DNA of 64,000 nucleotides from Aquisalinus luteolus. Its GTDB lineage: Bacteria > Pseudomonadota > Alphaproteobacteria > Caulobacterales > Parvularculaceae. Each line of letters opens with the position of its first letter. The first letter of the stretch is position 1. The notes under the pieces were generated by a model. It worked only from the letters and a program-made list of their open reading frames with translations. It did not search any database and was not told where the DNA came from. Where the stretch lies: positions 1,554,001 through 1,618,000 of the forward strand of contig NZ_VCJR02000001.1 of the NCBI RefSeq assembly GCF_009712425.2. Reading direction: 5' to 3'. Positions 11 to 62,554 of this stretch are shown piece after piece. A program made the position numbers and the translations under genes.

Positions 11-3000
11 TCAGACGAGCTCGACGTCAGCGACGCCTTCAATCGTCTTGATTGCGCCTTTCATGGCCACGGTCGCTGCGACCTCGCCCGGCAGCTTCAT
101 TTCGACCTCGCAGCCGGTTTCAGGCAGGTAAAGCAGGATTGAGGCCGTCCCCGTTGCTTCTGCAGGCTTGCCGCTGTCGAACAGGCGCCGGCGGATCGAC
201 GGCAGCGCCTCGGGCGTCATCACCGATATGCGCAACTCGGCCTTGGTCGTGGCAGCAGCCCGTTCCAGCAATTGCACGCCCTCCCCGGTCAGGCGGATCT
301 CGCCATCCCGGTCCTCGGCGGTGACCGACATCAGCACCAGCTTGCCGGGCTGGAGATGGTCCCGCGCGGCATCGAGCAGTTCAGAGAACACCGTGACCTC
401 GAACTCGCCCGTCTGGTCCGACAGGGCGACCCAAGCGAAGGGCTTGCCGGTCTTGGACCGGCGCGGCGTGAAGGCGCGGATCACCCCGGCAATCGACAAA
501 CTGATGCGCGTATCGGCCGCGCGCTGGGCGACCTCGGTGAACGGCACGACATTCAGCTTACGCAGGGCAGATGCATAGTCATCGAGCGGATGGCCCGAGA
601 AATAGAAACCGATGGCGGCGCGCTCGTTGTCGAGCCTCTCCAGTGGTGGCCAGTCATCGGCCTTTTTCAACGCCGGCCGGGCGAGCGCAGGCGCTTCCGC
701 CGCGCCAAACAGGCCACCCTGGTCGGAATTGCGCTCTTCTGCGACAGCCGAGGAATACCGCACAAGGAAGTCGGCATTGGCAAAGATCTGCGCCCGGTTC
801 GGATGGATGGAATCAAACGCCCCGGCCTTGGCGAGGTTTTCAAAGCCGCGCTTGCCGATCATGCGCCCGTCGACGCGCTCGACGAAATCGAAGATGTCAG
901 CAAAAGACCCGCCCTCGCGTCGTTTCTGGGCGATGTGGGCCATGGCTGCCTCGCCGACATTCTTGATCGCGCCTAGGGCATAGACGACAGCACCCTTGTC
1001 GCCGTCACCATCCGGGTCGGCCTTCACAGTAAAATCGGCCTCCGAGGCATTAACATCAGGCGCCAGTACGGTGATGCCGCTGGAACGCGCCTCCTTCATG
1101 AAAATGGCGAGCTTGTCGGTGTTGGCGCGATCGAGCGACATGGACGCGGCGAGGAATTCAGGCCCGTGATTGGCCTTCAGCCATGCTGTCTGGTAAGCGA
1201 TCCAGGCATAGGCGGCGGCGTGTGACTTGTTGAAACCGTAGCCCGCGAATTTCGCGACCATCTCGAAGATTGATTCAGCCTTGGCGCGGTCGACATTGTT
1301 TTCCTCCGCGCCTTCGACGAACCGGATCTTCTGCTTGTCCATCTCCTCTTTCTTCTTCTTGCCCATGGCGCGGCGCAGAAGGTCGGCTTCACCGAGGGAA
1401 TAGCCTGACAGGACCTGCGCGATCTGCATGACCTGCTCCTGATAGATGATGACCCCGTAGGTCTCCTTCAGGATGTTCTCCAGGAGCGGATGGAAATAAT
1501 CGGGATCCTCGCGCCCGAACTTGCGCTCGATATAGGTCGGGATGTTTTCCATCGGCCCCGGACGATAGAGCGAGACAAGCGCGATGATGTCTTCGAGAGT
1601 GTCAGGCTTCAGGCCGCGCAGGGTCGAGCGCATGCCGGTACTTTCAAGCTGGAACACGCCGACCGCCTGTCCCTCGCCCAGCATGTCGTATGTCTTGCGA
1701 TCATTGGTCGGGATATGGTCGATGTCGATCGTGACCTTGCGCTTGGCCAGTAATTCGACAGCGCGGCGGATGACGGTCAGCGTCTTCAGGCCGAGGAAGT
1801 CGAACTTCACGAGCCCTGCCGGCTCGACCCATTTCATGTTGAACTGCGTCGCCGGCATGTCGGAGCGCGGATCGCGATAGAGCGGCACCAGCTCGTCCAG
1901 CGGGCGGTCGCCAATCACCACACCGGCGGCGTGGGTCGATGCGTGGCGGTAGAGGCCCTCGAGCTTCTGAGCTTTGACCAGCAGGTCGGCGACCTGACTG
2001 TCCTTGTCACGCTCCTCGCGCAGGCGCGGCTCGGTGTTGATCGCCTCGCGCAGGGTGACCGGGTTTGCCGGATTGTTGGGCACCAGCTTGCAGAGCCGGT
2101 CAACCTGCATGAACGGCATGTTCAGCACACGGCCGACATCGCGCAGCACCGCGCGGGCCTGCAGTTTACCGAAGGTGATGATCTGCGCGACCCGGTCGCG
2201 ACCGTATTTCTCCTGCACATAGGAGATAACCTCGTCCCGCCGGTCCTGGCAGAAGTCGATATCGAAGTCGGGCATGGAGACCCGTTCGGGATTGAGGAAG
2301 CGCTCGAACAGCAGCCCGAAGCGCAACGGGTCGAGATCGGTGATCGTCAGCGACCAGGCAACGAGAGAGCCTGCACCCGACCCCCGTCCCGGCCCGACCG
2401 GCACGCCATGGGACTTTGCCCATTTGATGAAGTCGGCGACGATCAGGAAGTAACCCGGAAACCCCATGCCGCGGATGATTTCCAGCTCTTTCTCGAGCCG
2501 AGCCCAGTAATCCTCGACAGGGGCGGCAGGGTCGCCGTCAGCAAGGCGCCGCTCCAGCCCTTCACGGGCCTGGCGGGCAAGCTCCGCTGCCTCCCCGTCC
2601 ACATCATCGGCAAAGCGCGGCAGGATCGGCTTGTGCAGGCGCGGGCGAAAGGCGCAGCGCCGGGCAATCAGCACCGTGTTCTCAACCGCCTCCGGCAAGT
2701 CCTCGAAAAGTTGCGCCATTTCCGCCGGCGACCTGAAATAATGGTCGGCGGCAAGCTGGCGGCGGTCATCCATATGCACATAGGCGCCCTCTGCGATGCA
2801 CAGGAAAGCGTCATGAGCCTCATGGTCGTCAGGGGACGGAAAATAAGGCTCGGCGGTTGCGACCAGCGGCAGCTCGCGGTCATAGGCCAGCCCGAGCAAC
2901 TGGTTCTCATAGGGCTGGCGGAAGCCGCCACGCCCATCGGAGTGGCGCTGTAGCTCAATATAAAGCCGGTCGCCAAAGATCGCCTGCAGGCGCGTGACCA

Positions 3001-3472
3001 GATCGGCCGCCTCTGCCTGACGGTCGAGGGCAAGGAACCGATCGACCGGCCCGTTCGGTCCGCCGGTCAGGCAGATCAGCCCGTCGGCATAGCCCTCTAT
3101 CCGCTCGAGCGAGGAAGCAATCGCCGTCTCATTGGCCGACGAGAGGAACGCGTCACTGGTCAGTTTGAGGAGGTTGCGATAGCCGGCTTCATTCGTGGCA
3201 AGGAGAACGAGGGACGGCAGCGGCCCGGTCGAGGGCTCGGGCTGGCCAAGCGATCCGGGATCGAGCGCCAGTTGCAGGCCGGTGATCGGCTGAATACCGG
3301 CGGCAGACAGGACCTCGGAAGCTTCCAGCGCTCCGAAGAGGTTGTTCGTGTCCGTTACCGCGACGGCGGGCATCTCATGTTCAAGGCACAGCTCTTTCAG
3401 CCGGCCGATATGGATGGCCCCTTCGGCCAGCGAATAAGAAGAATGGAGATGAAGATGGATGAACGGCTGCAT
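11..3472 (-). CDS. dnaE: DNA polymerase III alpha subunit (replicative polymerase)
   Basis: Catalytic subunit of the replicative DNA polymerase. The 1153-residue product has the usual DnaE length and order: an N-terminal PHP domain with the His cluster FIHLHLHSSYSL (about residues 4-15), the palm with GPGRGSGAGS near residue 360 and the catalytic acidic motif PDFDIDF (residues 401-407), then tandem HhH and an OB fold near residue 970-1060 (ISLSIAGVIRAF). The PHP histidines at the start are largely kept, so proofreading or structural metal binding is possible. It is complete: the TGA stop lies at 11-13. It is the last gene of a same-strand run; a 31-codon ORF with a LexA box ends 64 bases upstream, so part of its transcription may be DNA-damage linked (inference). 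Identification is firm. Confidence 0.97.
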   Translation of the reverse strand: MQPFIHLHLHSSYSLAEGAIHIGRLKELCLEHEMPAVAVTDTNNLFGALEASEVLSAAGIQPITGLQLALDPGSLGQPEPSTGPLPSLVLLATNEAGYRNLLKLTSDAFLSSANETAIASSLERIEGYADGLICLTGGPNGPVDRFLALDRQAEAADLVTRLQAIFGDRLYIELQRHSDGRGGFRQPYENQLLGLAYDRELPLVATAEPYFPSPDDHEAHDAFLCIAEGAYVHMDDRRQLAADHYFRSPAEMAQLFEDLPEAVENTVLIARRCAFRPRLHKPILPRFADDVDGEAAELARQAREGLERRLADGDPAAPVEDYWARLEKELEIIRGMGFPGYFLIVADFIKWAKSHGVPVGPGRGSGAGSLVAWSLTITDLDPLRFGLLFERFLNPERVSMPDFDIDFCQDRRDEVISYVQEKYGRDRVAQIITFGKLQARAVLRDVGRVLNMPFMQVDRLCKLVPNNPANPVTLREAINTEPRLREERDKDSQVADLLVKAQKLEGLYRHASTHAAGVVIGDRPLDELVPLYRDPRSDMPATQFNMKWVEPAGLVKFDFLGLKTLTVIRRAVELLAKRKVTIDIDHIPTNDRKTYDMLGEGQAVGVFQLESTGMRSTLRGLKPDTLEDIIALVSLYRPGPMENIPTYIERKFGREDPDYFHPLLENILKETYGVIIYQEQVMQIAQVLSGYSLGEADLLRRAMGKKKKEEMDKQKIRFVEGAEENNVDRAKAESIFEMVAKFAGYGFNKSHAAAYAWIAYQTAWLKANHGPEFLAASMSLDRANTDKLAIFMKEARSSGITVLAPDVNASEADFTVKADPDGDGDKGAVVYALGAIKNVGEAAMAHIAQKRREGGSFADIFDFVERVDGRMIGKRGFENLAKAGAFDSIHPNRAQIFANADFLVRYSSAVAEERNSDQGGLFGAAEAPALARPALKKADDWPPLERLDNERAAIGFYFSGHPLDDYASALRKLNVVPFTEVAQRAADTRISLSIAGVIRAFTPRRSKTGKPFAWVALSDQTGEFEVTVFSELLDAARDHLQPGKLVLMSVTAEDRDGEIRLTGEGVQLLERAAATTKAELRISVMTPEALPSIRRRLFDSGKPAEATGTASILLYLPETGCEVEMKLPGEVAATVAMKGAIKTIEGVADVELV

Positions 3473-3536: not shown

Positions 3537-3632
3537 TTACCCGGCGAGCAAACCACTCCAGAGATAGACTGCCGCCACCAGCCCGAGCATGACGCCGAGG
3601 CCGAGACCATCGCGGATAAGATGTGCATTCAT
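3537..3632 (-). CDS. SOS-associated 31-residue single-pass membrane micro-protein
   Basis: A very short reading frame, ATG at 3632 and TAA at 3537-3539. It starts MNAHLIRDGLGLG and ends YLWSGLLAG. The middle (about residues 9-28) is one hydrophobic helix, so a single-pass inner-membrane protein is predicted. An ideal ribosome-binding site AAGGAGG (3638-3644) lies five bases before the ATG, strong evidence that it is translated. A perfect alphaproteobacterial LexA box lies 19 bases upstream of the start. Size, topology and control recall Caulobacter SidA, a 29-residue SOS-induced division inhibitor; no sequence homology is claimed. It could instead be an unrelated stress micro-protein. Confidence 0.68.
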   Translation of the reverse strand: MNAHLIRDGLGLGVMLGLVAAVYLWSGLLAG

Positions 3633-3637
3633 GGGAA

Positions 3638-3644
3638 CCTCCTT
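3638..3644 (-). promoter_or_regulatory. Consensus ribosome-binding site AAGGAGG
   Basis: Read on the minus strand this is AAGGAGG, five bases from the ATG at 3632. It is the best Shine-Dalgarno match noticed in the window and is the main reason to accept the 31-codon frame as a gene. Confidence 0.75.
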
Positions 3645-3650
3645 AACCTT

Positions 3651-3665
3651 GTTCACATTATGTTC
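3651..3665 (-). promoter_or_regulatory. LexA (SOS) box GTTC-N7-GTTC
   Basis: The plus strand reads GTTCACATTATGTTC, a perfect match to the direct-repeat LexA box known from alphaproteobacteria (GTTC-N7-GTTC). It sits in the only substantial spacer upstream of the micro-protein and dnaE. On the minus strand a CATAAT hexamer, a possible -10, lies inside it. A near-match lies at 3677-3691. The promoter itself is inferred. Confidence 0.7.
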
Positions 3666-3676
3666 TTAATATCAAT

Positions 3677-3691
3677 ATTCCCTTTTTGTTC
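3677..3691 (-). promoter_or_regulatory. Possible second LexA half-matching box
   Basis: Plus strand ATTCCCTTTTTGTTC: seven of the eight fixed positions of GTTC-N7-GTTC, 26 bases from the perfect box. A paired site could allow cooperative repression, but a seven-of-eight match can occur by chance. Confidence 0.35.
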
Positions 3692-3760
3692 TCATGTCCA
3701 GCAGTTTCCTCCGGAAATTGTACCGGCCAGAATTCCACAGCAAGATGAAGAAGTTAGTGC

Positions 3761-4474
3761 CTATTCGCCGAGAATGGTGACGGTGCTTTCGTCGATCTCG
3801 ACCTGTACGAGACGGCGATCCTTGATCGCAACGACGCGGTCCATGCGGGCGGCCAGCGCCCTGTCATGGGTGGCGATCAGGGCGGCAAGCCCCCGCTCCT
3901 GCACGATGTCCAGCAGCGCATCGAAGACACGACCCGATGTTTCGACATCGAGATTGCCTGTGGGCTCATCGGCCAGCAAAAGGGACGGTTCATTGGCCAA
4001 GGCCCGGGCTATGGCGACGCGCTGTTTCTCACCGCCGGAGAGCTGGGCCGGCTGGTGCTGCAGGCGCTCGGCGAGGCCGAGATTGGTAAGGATATTGGTC
4101 GAGCGGATATCTGCCTGCTTGTGGCTGCGCCCGGCGATCAGCTGTGGCAGGGAGACATTGCCTAGCGCCGTGAATTCCGGCTGCAGGTGGTGAAACTGAT
4201 AGACGAAACCAAGCGTGTCGCGGCGCAGGCGGGTGCGCTCTGCATCGTTCATCATCGAGGTTGCCCGGCCGTTGATATAGACTTCGCCACTGGTTGGCGG
4301 CTCGAGCAGGCCGGCGACATGCAGCAGTGATGACTTGCCCGAGCCAGACGGCCCAAGCAGTGCGACGATCTCGCCCTTGCTGATGGTGAAATCAACGCCT
4401 TCCAGAACCTTCAGCTCGCCGTAAAAACGGTCAAGTTTTTCAAGGTGTAATACTGTTTCTCTCGTATCGCTCAT
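3761..4474 (-). CDS. lolD: Lipoprotein-release ABC transporter ATPase LolD
   Basis: Cytoplasmic ATPase that powers release of outer-membrane lipoproteins from the inner membrane. The 237-residue product has Walker A GPSGSGKSS (residues 41-49), the ABC signature LSGGEKQR, and Walker B with LLLADEPTGNLD. The TGNL extension and overall sequence match the LolD/MacB/FtsE group. It follows the permease gene by 11 bases on the same strand, as expected for a LolCD operon, and the proS-lolC-lolD-dnaE order is common in alphaproteobacteria. Specificity for Lol rather than another MacB-like exporter rests on this partner and context. Confidence 0.93.
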   Translation of the reverse strand: MSDTRETVLHLEKLDRFYGELKVLEGVDFTISKGEIVALLGPSGSGKSSLLHVAGLLEPPTSGEVYINGRATSMMNDAERTRLRRDTLGFVYQFHHLQPEFTALGNVSLPQLIAGRSHKQADIRSTNILTNLGLAERLQHQPAQLSGGEKQRVAIARALANEPSLLLADEPTGNLDVETSGRVFDALLDIVQERGLAALIATHDRALAARMDRVVAIKDRRLVQVEIDESTVTILGE

Positions 4475-57877: not shown

Positions 57878-59884
57878 ATGGCCCGCAAATCCGCCAAAGC
57901 CGCTGTTGAAGATGACCTGTTTTCCGGGGGTGACTACACCGCCAAGGATATCGAGGTGCTGGAGGGGCTGGAGCCTGTCCGCAAGCGGCCGGGCATGTAT
58001 ATCGGCGGCACCGATGAAAAGGCGCTGCACCACCTCTTCGCCGAAGTGCTCGACAACTCCATGGACGAGGCCGTCGCCGGGCACGCCAGCCGCATCGAGG
58101 TCGAACTACACGAGAACGGCGCGCTGACCGTCTCAGACAATGGCCGCGGCATGCCGATCGACCCGCACCCAAAATTCAAGAACAAGTCGGCGCTGGAAGT
58201 GATCATGACGACGCTGCACGCGGGCGGCAAGTTCTCCAACAAGGCCTATGCCACCTCCGGCGGCCTGCACGGCGTCGGCGCCTCGGTCGTCAACGCGCTG
58301 TCGGACGAGCTGACTGTCGAGGTCGCGCGGGGCCGCAAGCTCTATCGCCAGACCTTCTCCAAGGGCATCCCCACATCCAAGCTGAAGACCGTGGGCGATG
58401 CCCCCAACCGGCGCGGCACGTCCACCACCTTCCACCCGGACCCGGAGATTTTCGGCGAGAAGGCAAAGTTCAAGCCCGCCCGCCTGTTCCGCATGACGCG
58501 GTCCAAGGCCTATCTGTTCGGCGGGGTCGAAATCCGCTGGAAATGCGCAGCCAGCCTGATCAAGGACGAGACTCCGGCGCAGGAAGTGCTGAAATTCGAC
58601 AACGGCCTGCGCGACTATCTCCAGTCCGTCGTCGACAAGAAACCGACGGTCACCGACGATATCTTCTCCGGCAAGGTCGAGCGCGAGGGCGGCCACGGCA
58701 CGGTCGAATGGGCCGTGTGCTGGGGCCAGGCCGGGTTCGCCATGGAAGGCGGCCAGACCGCCGACGGCTTCTCACACTCATACTGCAACACCATCCCGAC
58801 ACCGGAGGGCGGCACCCATGAACAGGGCTTGCGCTCCGCCCTCACCCGTGGCCTGAAGGCCTATGCGGAGCTGGCGGGCGTCAAGAAAGGCGCCAACGTC
58901 ACGGCGGAAGACGTGATGGGCACCGCCGGCGCGATGCTGTCGGTCTTCATTTCCAACCCGGAATTCCAGGGCCAGACGAAGGACAAGCTCGCCACCAACG
59001 AGGCGCAGAAGCTGACAGAGACCGCCGTCAGGGCGGAGTTCGACCACTGGCTCGCCGGGCACCGCAAGCAGGCCGACCAGCTGCTCGAATGGGTCATCGA
59101 CCGCGCGGATGAGCGCCAGCGCCGCCGCAAGGAAAAGGAAGTCTCCCGCGCCAGCGCCATGCGCAAGCTGCGCCTGCCGGGCAAGCTCGCCGACTGCTCG
59201 CAACAGGCTGCCGACGGCACGGAGATTTTCCTCGTCGAGGGAGACTCCGCCGGTGGCTCGGCCAAGCAGGCGCGCGACCGCAAGACACAGGCGATCCTGC
59301 CCTTGCGCGGCAAGATCCTCAACGTCGCCTCGGCAACGCGCGACAAGATCGCCGCGAACCAGGAAATCAACGACATCATCCAGGCGCTCGGCAGCGGCAT
59401 CGGCTCGAAATTCGATATCGAGGAGCTGCGCTACGAGAAGGTCATCATCATGACCGACGCCGATGTCGACGGCGCCCACATCGCCGCCCTGCTCATCACC
59501 TTCTTCCATCGCTCGATGCCGGAGCTGATCACTGCCGGCCGGCTCTACCTCGCCCAGCCGCCGCTCTATAAAGTCTCGCAGGGCGGAAAGTCAGCATACG
59601 CCATTGACGAGGGCCATCGTGACAAGCTGATCGAGACGGAATTCAAAAAGGGCCAGAAGGTCGACGTCTCCCGCTTCAAGGGCCTCGGCGAGATGATGCC
59701 GGCGCAGCTGAAAGAAACGACCATGAACCCGGCCACGCGCACCCTCGCCCGCGTCGTCATCCCCGAAGACAAGGCCCCCGAAGTCATGGACCTCGTCGAA
59801 CGCCTGATGGGCAAAAAGGCCGAAGCGCGGTACAACTTCATCCAGGAGAATGCGGCGTTTGTCGCGGAGGAACTGGATATTTAG
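57878..59884 (+). CDS. parE: Topoisomerase IV subunit B
   Basis: ATPase subunit of decatenating topoisomerase. 668 residues: GHKL ATPase (LFAEVLDNSMDEAVAGHA; GGLHGVGASVVNALS), TOPRIM (EIFLVEGDSAGGSAKQARDR; IIMTDADVDGAHIAALL) and the C-terminal RFKGLGEMMPAQLKETTMNP. AGGAA precedes the ATG. Its stop overlaps the stop of the restriction-island nuclease (TTAG, 59881-59884). Confidence 0.96.
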   Translation: MARKSAKAAVEDDLFSGGDYTAKDIEVLEGLEPVRKRPGMYIGGTDEKALHHLFAEVLDNSMDEAVAGHASRIEVELHENGALTVSDNGRGMPIDPHPKFKNKSALEVIMTTLHAGGKFSNKAYATSGGLHGVGASVVNALSDELTVEVARGRKLYRQTFSKGIPTSKLKTVGDAPNRRGTSTTFHPDPEIFGEKAKFKPARLFRMTRSKAYLFGGVEIRWKCAASLIKDETPAQEVLKFDNGLRDYLQSVVDKKPTVTDDIFSGKVEREGGHGTVEWAVCWGQAGFAMEGGQTADGFSHSYCNTIPTPEGGTHEQGLRSALTRGLKAYAELAGVKKGANVTAEDVMGTAGAMLSVFISNPEFQGQTKDKLATNEAQKLTETAVRAEFDHWLAGHRKQADQLLEWVIDRADERQRRRKEKEVSRASAMRKLRLPGKLADCSQQAADGTEIFLVEGDSAGGSAKQARDRKTQAILPLRGKILNVASATRDKIAANQEINDIIQALGSGIGSKFDIEELRYEKVIIMTDADVDGAHIAALLITFFHRSMPELITAGRLYLAQPPLYKVSQGGKSAYAIDEGHRDKLIETEFKKGQKVDVSRFKGLGEMMPAQLKETTMNPATRTLARVVIPEDKAPEVMDLVERLMGKKAEARYNFIQENAAFVAEELDI

Positions 59885-60856: not shown

Positions 60857-61312
60857 TCAGCTGCCTAACTGCAAAATCCGATGATTTTCCATATTGATAA
60901 GCCAATTTTCTAGCTTATTTAAAATTTCATTTATTTCGTCAGCACTCCTATTTTTCAGACCACATTCCCATATTACCGCAACCCTTATTCCATGTCGTTC
61001 AATCATTGATGTATGTTTTTCATCGCGAACGATATTTGATCCTATTTTTTCGCGCCAAAAGTCTATTCGAGTCTTCGGCCACTTGAATAGGTGACAGTCA
61101 TGCCCATGCCAGAAACAGCCATGAACAAATATCACGGCGTTATATTTCGGCAGTACGAGATCAGGCTTTCCCGGCAGTGACTTATCATAAAGTTTATACC
61201 GAAACCCCCGCGCATGAAGTCCCTTGCGGATGATCATCTCGGGCTTGGTATCTTTGCCCTTGATGCCCGACATCATCCGGCTTCGGACTTCCTTTGAAAC
61301 AACATCAGCCAT
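60857..61312 (-). CDS. vsr: Very short patch repair endonuclease
   Basis: Nicks DNA at T:G mismatches left by deaminated 5-methylcytosine. 151 residues with the Vsr marks RSRMMSGIKGKDTKPEMIIR, GKPDLVLPKYNAVIFVHGCF and WHGHDCHLFKWPKTR. Its ATG overlaps the dcm stop by one base (TGATG), and the HNH gene starts one base after its end. Confidence 0.94.
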   Translation of the reverse strand: MADVVSKEVRSRMMSGIKGKDTKPEMIIRKGLHARGFRYKLYDKSLPGKPDLVLPKYNAVIFVHGCFWHGHDCHLFKWPKTRIDFWREKIGSNIVRDEKHTSMIERHGIRVAVIWECGLKNRSADEINEILNKLENWLINMENHRILQLGS

Positions 61313-62547
61313 CAGGCTACAGCTGCAACTTTTTCCTCTACGGTCAAGGCCTTCTTGATATGCGGCTCCATCAACTCCGCAATCGCCTCGATGACCGGAA
61401 CAACAACCGCGTTGCCAAACTGACGATAGGCCTGTGTGTCAGAGACCGGAATCCTCCATGATCGCCCCTTTGCGTCATACTCAAAGCCCATCAGTCGAGC
61501 GCATTCCGTGGGTGTGAGACGCCTTGGTCTTTGCCTGCCTCGCTGCTTCACAAGGATTTCGGAACCGTCCTTGTAGTATCTCGCTGACAGGGTGCGCGTG
61601 ACATCGTCCGGCCCGCAAAGTCCAAAGCCAAAACCGTTGCCCTGCCCCGCATGCTTCTCCTTGTAAGCTTGGAGATACTCCCAGAGCCGCGGTGTCAGCG
61701 TGTACTTACTATCGATTTCATTGTGTCCCTGAAGGATGTCCCCCAGAACAGGCCATTCATTTTGCGGCGGTATCAGCGCATCAAACTGGCTGAAATCAAA
61801 ATCAGTGTCATCACGGAAACCAACGATAAAAATACGTTCCCGCTTTTGCGGAACCCACGGATTGGATGCAATCACGCGATGCTGGATACGATATCCAAGC
61901 TCTTTCTCGAGAACACTGGAGATCACCTTGAACGTATTTCCCTTGTCGTGGCGCTGAAGGTTTTTCACGTTCTCCAGTAGGAATGCTTTAGGCCGGTGAT
62001 AGGCAATAATTTTCTGGATATCGAAAAACAAGGTTCCCTGAGTTTCGTCGGAAAACCCGTGAGGGCGACCAAGGGCATTCTTCTTGGAAACACCGGCTAT
62101 TGAGAATGGCTGACAGGGGAAACCCGCAAGCAAAACATCGTGCTCGGGAATCAATGAAGGATCAGCCCCATACGGACGAATATCGCCCGCAAAGACATGA
62201 TCATCACCATCCTGAAAATTGGCCCGGTATGTTTGCTGGCTGAACTTGTCCCATTCGCTTGTAAAGACACATTTGCCGCCAATACCCTCAAAACCAATGC
62301 GCAACCCACCGATACCCGCAAAAAGATCAATGAACCTGAAGTCGGCGGCAGGCTTCAGCGGCAATTGCGGCTTCATGTCCGCTTCTACCTTCAGGACACG
62401 CATATCCGGCAATGGAGCCTTTTGTTCGCCCAGATCATATCGTCTGATCTGACGCTCGGATTTGTCGAGCAACACAGCCGTTTCGGCAATGGTCAGTTCG
62501 GCTTGCTCACGCAAACGGCGAAAGTCGGAGATGTCATTTGTTCTCAT
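61312..62547 (-). CDS. dcm: DNA (cytosine-5) methyltransferase, Dcm-like
   Basis: 411 residues. N-terminal HTH (FRRLREQAELTIAETAVLLD then KSERQIRRYDLGE), SAM motif FIDLFAGIGGLRIGF, catalytic GFPCQPFSIAG, ENV, and the target-recognition and closing part (GNGFGFGLCGPDDVTRTLSA, RLTPTECARLMGF) that closely resembles E. coli Dcm and EcoRII methylases, so CCWGG is the likely site. The HTH suggests self-control at the promoter just upstream. vsr and the nuclease follow at once. AT-rich relative to neighbours. Confidence 0.94.
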   Translation of the reverse strand: MRTNDISDFRRLREQAELTIAETAVLLDKSERQIRRYDLGEQKAPLPDMRVLKVEADMKPQLPLKPAADFRFIDLFAGIGGLRIGFEGIGGKCVFTSEWDKFSQQTYRANFQDGDDHVFAGDIRPYGADPSLIPEHDVLLAGFPCQPFSIAGVSKKNALGRPHGFSDETQGTLFFDIQKIIAYHRPKAFLLENVKNLQRHDKGNTFKVISSVLEKELGYRIQHRVIASNPWVPQKRERIFIVGFRDDTDFDFSQFDALIPPQNEWPVLGDILQGHNEIDSKYTLTPRLWEYLQAYKEKHAGQGNGFGFGLCGPDDVTRTLSARYYKDGSEILVKQRGRQRPRRLTPTECARLMGFEYDAKGRSWRIPVSDTQAYRQFGNAVVVPVIEAIAELMEPHIKKALTVEEKVAAVA

Positions 62548-62554
62548 CTTGTTC
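62540..62554 (-). promoter_or_regulatory. LexA-box match over the dcm start
   Basis: GTTCTCATCTTGTTC on the plus strand fits GTTC-N7-GTTC. It is made by a 10-base direct repeat TTGTTCTCAT (62538-62547 and 62549-62558) and covers the start codon. About two such matches are expected by chance in 64 kb, so the assignment is tentative. Confidence 0.4.

Follow-up and report, generated by a model that had tools for sequence, protein, structure and literature searches.

A LexA-box micro-ORF preceding dnaE in Aquisalinus luteolus very probably encodes a distant version of the Caulobacter division inhibitor SidA

Inhibitors that stop division in the SOS response are usually regarded as inventions of single lineages. 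Caulobacter SidA, an inner-membrane protein of 29 aa whose induction goes through LexA, interacts with FtsW and also, to some extent, with FtsN; Z-rings stay assembled, and the FtsW variants F145L and A246T bypass its action (PMC4211646). According to the model put forward for SidA, an inactive FtsW/FtsI/FtsN state is stabilised (PMC4211646). The sidA gene of C. crescentus is CCNA_02004 (PMC11034885), CCNA_02005 encodes an inosine-uridine nucleoside hydrolase (PMC3667746), and the Caulobacter dnaE gene is CC1926 (PMC1839093), listed as SOS-regulated in earlier work (PMC3323433). A second Caulobacter protein, DidA, is a small single-helix inhibitor of the same divisome step (PMC4211646). In other bacteria, SOS-induced division arrest is brought about by YneA, SosA and SulA, and YneA is described as also acting on FtsW (PMC13396833).

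The window, i.e., the whole stretch of 64,000 nt analysed here, carries on its minus strand a lolC-like gene, a lolD-like gene, a micro-ORF and dnaE, in this order. The features of the locus are the following:

11..3472, minus strand: dnaE, replicative DNA polymerase III alpha (NCBIfam TIGR00594, over cut-off)
3537..3632, minus strand: sidA-like micro-ORF of 31 aa, MNAHLIRDGLGLGVMLGLVAAVYLWSGLLAG (translation)
3638..3644, minus strand: Shine-Dalgarno sequence AAGGAGG, 5 nt before the micro-ORF ATG (sequence)
3651..3665, minus strand: candidate LexA box 2, perfect GAAC-N7-GAAC, GAACATAATGTGAAC (GTTCACATTATGTTC on the plus strand), the second box conserved in relatives
3672..3677, minus strand: predicted -10 element TATTGA (promoter alignment; family consensus TATAGA)
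3677..3691, minus strand: candidate LexA box 1, GAAC-N7-GAAT, GAACAAAAAGGGAAT, in the -35/-10 spacer (promoter alignment)
3695..3700, minus strand: predicted -35 element TGGACA, 17 nt from the -10 element (promoter alignment)
3761..4474, minus strand: lolD-like ABC transporter ATPase, the next gene upstream of the micro-ORF (family named by eye)

A sequence-only reading of this DNA had proposed a 31-codon frame with a hydrophobic helix, AAGGAGG five bases before its ATG, a perfect LexA-type box and a second near-match. All of these are present at the positions listed above, and only the distance from the perfect box to the ATG, given as 19 bases, had to be corrected to 18. The product consists of a short N-terminal segment with a conserved [RK]D, followed by a single hydrophobic helix; the hydropathy peak is 2.06 (17-residue span) and one helix was predicted. 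The dnaE gene lies 64 nt downstream of the micro-ORF and, because the terminator scan found no terminator-like site between the two, their joint transcription is plausible.

The nearest named relative indicated by the DnaE query was Aquisalinus flavus (86% in the best segment). Between the window and a genome that is probably A. flavus (G010; its match positions agree with those in CP042288.1), the peptide was identical and 12 of 12 codon differences were synonymous (P = 2e-7); the micro-ORF is under purifying selection. The dnaE-upstream regions of further genomes were examined with a combined rule, comprising a LexA-type box, a Shine-Dalgarno sequence, an ATG and a hydrophobic ORF of 22–50 aa. 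This combination occurred in 46 of 51 Parvularculaceae regions vs. none of 2,040 dinucleotide shuffles, and in 8 of 39 regions from other alphaproteobacterial families vs. none of 1,560 shuffles. The micro-ORFs found before dnaE in the family were mostly 25–33 residues long; they share the core [RK]D..G[LF] and have a single hydrophobic stretch. As judged from these sequence comparisons, the 31-aa frame is a genuine, conserved gene.

The promoter alignment documents a LexA-type promoter upstream of this gene. In the aligned family promoters (ct.Gaca.gAGAACAAAAaggGAATAtag), the -35 element is followed by the first box filling the spacer, the -10 element and the second box near the expected start, and the core of this layout is common to Caulobacteraceae. 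Of the two boxes, box 1 shows the stronger conservation (consensus AGAACAAAAaggGAATAtag), and box 2 is expected to overlap the transcription start. The bare motif GTTC-N7-GTTC was found at three sites in the window against 1.7 expected, with 26 of 100 shuffles reaching three, and at 80 sites in the whole genome vs. 67 for the reversed control. Such counts are near chance and the case therefore rests on conservation, not on motif counting. The window box at 3651–3665 is nearly equal to the ssb box of the same genome (GAACATTATGTGAAC), and GTTC-N7-GTTC boxes also precede the lexA, uvrA, uvrB, imuB, dinB-like Y-family polymerase and ruvC genes (the names uvrA and uvrB were assigned by eye, Pfam giving generic matches or none on the fragments); the motif is therefore taken as the SOS box of the organism.

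Other sites with this motif were noted in the genome. The third window site (58103–58117) lies inside a parE-like coding frame (type II topoisomerase B subunit) and is probably due to chance. At 62540–62554, a perfect site, GTTCTCATCTTGTTC, includes the start of a gene for a DNA methyltransferase, overlapping its start codon (61312–62547, minus strand; PADLOC type II MTase, E = 2e-150), and a near-identical site, GTTCTCATATTGTTC (C3:3948), precedes another methyltransferase-like gene (L199); from these sites, both methyltransferases are possibly under LexA control. One more site (G000, C3:151505–151519; L193) was located 156 nt before mraZ; an FtsW-like gene follows about 9.6 kb after the site, in the same contig and on the same strand.

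In genomes of the genus Caulobacter, the ORF directly before dnaE codes for 29 aa, matches NCBIfam NF033228 (div_inhib_SidA, "cell division inhibitor SidA") from end to end (E = 2e-20) and sits between an inosine-uridine nucleoside hydrolase gene (PF01156, E = 2e-79) and dnaE. The loci, among them that of Caulobacter vibrioides OR37 (L140), were named in one scan with a chimeric DnaE query covering the window's genus and Caulobacter. By the NF033228 match and the published neighbours of the locus the Caulobacter ORF is SidA, and the window ORF therefore occupies the sidA slot. A second SidA-like reading, MTRLIRETLAFAAAATFVWAVCVGALVVGDLFRSLPA, was found away from dnaE in one Caulobacter genome (L243, G075:C3:315102–315185); the 200 nt upstream of it contain no LexA-type box.

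For the sequence relationship, the families of the order Caulobacterales were labelled f1 (Parvularculaceae, the window's own), f2, f3 (containing Caulobacter), f4 and f5. The window peptide gave no match to NF033228 (cut-off 35 bits), no match to this model was present anywhere in its genome at E <= 1, and Pfam and NCBIfam returned nothing above cut-off for the peptide. The NF033228 cut-off was passed in 25 of 200 genomes of the order, all from f3; the model thus describes Caulobacteraceae members only, and the window protein is for this reason filed under a wider family rather than under the equivalog model. The direct profile–profile comparison of f1 with f3 revealed no similarity (score 7.5, a value reached by 80 of 150 shuffles). 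The f5 profile was linked with f3 at E = 4e-7 and with f1 at E = 1e-4, in both cases with 0 of 150 column shuffles as good. When a profile built without f1 sequences was used, the window ORF ranked first in its own genome (E = 0.009, positions 3–30 of 30), as did the micro-ORF of G010 in its genome (E = 0.008); in most other whole f1 genomes this profile found nothing. A relationship between the window protein and SidA was therefore detectable, indirectly through f5 and through the leave-out profile. Considering the negative results of the direct f1–f3 comparison and of NF033228, the sequence link is indirect or borderline, and it leans on synteny and regulation. The earlier proposal of a functional counterpart of SidA was supported and, with the same dnaE-upstream slot and the profile links via f5, strengthened to common descent; the window protein is very probably a divergent form of Caulobacter SidA.

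The window protein shares with C. crescentus SidA (CCNA_02004; NF033228) the slot directly before dnaE, the single predicted helix, a length of about 30 aa, an [RK][DE] pair of charged residues at the entrance of the helix, and a LexA-type promoter whose -35/-10 spacer holds a box. It differs from SidA in length (31 vs. 29 aa), in the replacement of FVWMM and in having W and a GLLAG-type C-terminus, and it is missed by NF033228. The usual Parvularculaceae promoter has two tandem boxes, unlike that of sidA, and the direct upstream neighbour in the window is lolD, whereas that of sidA is the nucleoside hydrolase gene. Compared by description, DidA differs more widely, as it is a 71-aa protein with a periplasmic part, SOS-independent, induced by DriD and not LexA, and directed at FtsN. 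YneA, SosA and SulA, likewise compared by description, are different proteins from different lineages.

On these grounds it is considered highly likely that the window frame is the SidA ortholog of Parvularculaceae (genus Aquisalinus), repressed by LexA and, once DNA is damaged, blocking the divisome at the FtsW/FtsI/FtsN step. For the window protein, the binding of LexA, induction by damage, insertion into the membrane and the target in the divisome are extrapolated from SidA. In undamaged cells, LexA would occupy the box between -35 and -10 as well as the box over the start site and keep the gene off. DNA damage would lead to LexA cleavage and production of the peptide, which would insert into the inner membrane as a single helix and hold the FtsW/FtsI/FtsN complex inactive, as in Caulobacter, so that septation would wait for repair. 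An FtsW-like protein is encoded in the genome (C3:161080–162141, E = 9e-93, a match below the curated cut-off of the model).

The window protein has not kept the FVWMM stretch of SidA, hence the contact with the target could differ. A SidA-family membrane peptide with a changed divisome or envelope target would agree with the GLVAAV-type residues found in place of FVWMM and with the lost direct f1–f3 similarity, but length, helix position, promoter and locus are the same as for SidA and nothing points to another target, which makes such a change improbable. Somewhat less probable still is a SOS-induced membrane-depolarising peptide, a toxin of the TisB/DinQ type rather than a specific divisome inhibitor. 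The size, the single helix and the SOS control also suit such peptides, and E. coli DinQ is described as a single-transmembrane SOS peptide (PMC3567139); however, the window ORF is tied to SidA by position, promoter and the chain of profiles, and conservation of the charged [RK]D/RE motif where the helix is entered suggests that a specific contact is made.

The distribution of the micro-ORF in the order was examined with a combined profile. It matched in 103 of 200 genomes, by our own count 38 of 40 from f3, 38 of 39 from f5 and 27 of 41 from f1, with no match in the f2 and f4 genomes among these 200. In the same set, 100 of 104 matches shared the strand of dnaE and preceded it by 15–374 nt (median 77). 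A class-level search found members before dnaE also in families absent from the alignment (e.g., L237 and L238), L237 encoding MKQLAKDTFASIVFGMLLWSAILWISIFNSPAAIA with two LexA boxes. In one f1 genome (G020), the ORF with both boxes was found on another contig (L242, G020:C33:21000–22600) beside a SIS-domain-like gene, and no LexA-type box was left in the region before dnaE. As the boxes moved away from dnaE together with the ORF, they belong to the micro-ORF.

These data bear on the reading of the micro-ORF as a regulatory leader peptide or attenuator for dnaE, with dnaE itself being the gene of interest. The short distance to dnaE in the window, with no terminator found in between, would suit such a leader, as would the listing of Caulobacter dnaE as SOS-regulated (PMC3323433) and the f2 regions: in the three that were read (L083–L085), no recognisable micro-ORF was seen before dnaE, and two of them (L083 and L085) keep a GTTC-N7-GTTC box there. 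The leader-peptide reading is nevertheless judged quite unlikely and was set aside, since the residues and the hydrophobic helix are conserved beyond a mere ORF, the gap to dnaE is variable, the ORF and the boxes are away from dnaE in G020, and Caulobacter SidA works as a protein (PMC4211646). A chance ORF beside a LexA box, which the near-chance count of the bare motif would allow, is extremely improbable and was rejected as refuted by conservation, given the combined-rule counts against the shuffles and the purely synonymous codon differences.

In terms of family assignment, the preferred reading, i.e., a LexA-controlled SidA ortholog, makes the window protein an added member of the known SidA family, which, going by the profile matches, is much broader than annotated. 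A more far-reaching view, to which about even weight is given, is that SidA may be the most familiar branch of an ancient family of micro-proteins in Alphaproteobacteria, fixed before dnaE as a LexA-controlled sidA–dnaE unit. Members would occur in Caulobacteraceae, Parvularculaceae and a third family as well as in at least nine families from outside the order. Such a unit would tie a division brake to the replicative polymerase gene, and the LexA box credited to dnaE would belong first to the micro-ORF.

This gene indicates that SidA is a conserved family which, for the most part unannotated, keeps one fixed place on the chromosome in much of Alphaproteobacteria; within Caulobacterales, the curated model names it in 25 of 200 genomes and the broader profile in 103. 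As a warning, a LexA box that has been attributed to dnaE may in fact control an overlooked gene. A simple rule for finding the division brake in a new species is to look before dnaE, and natural sequence variants become available for mapping how a helix of 30 residues switches off the FtsW/FtsI/FtsN machinery.
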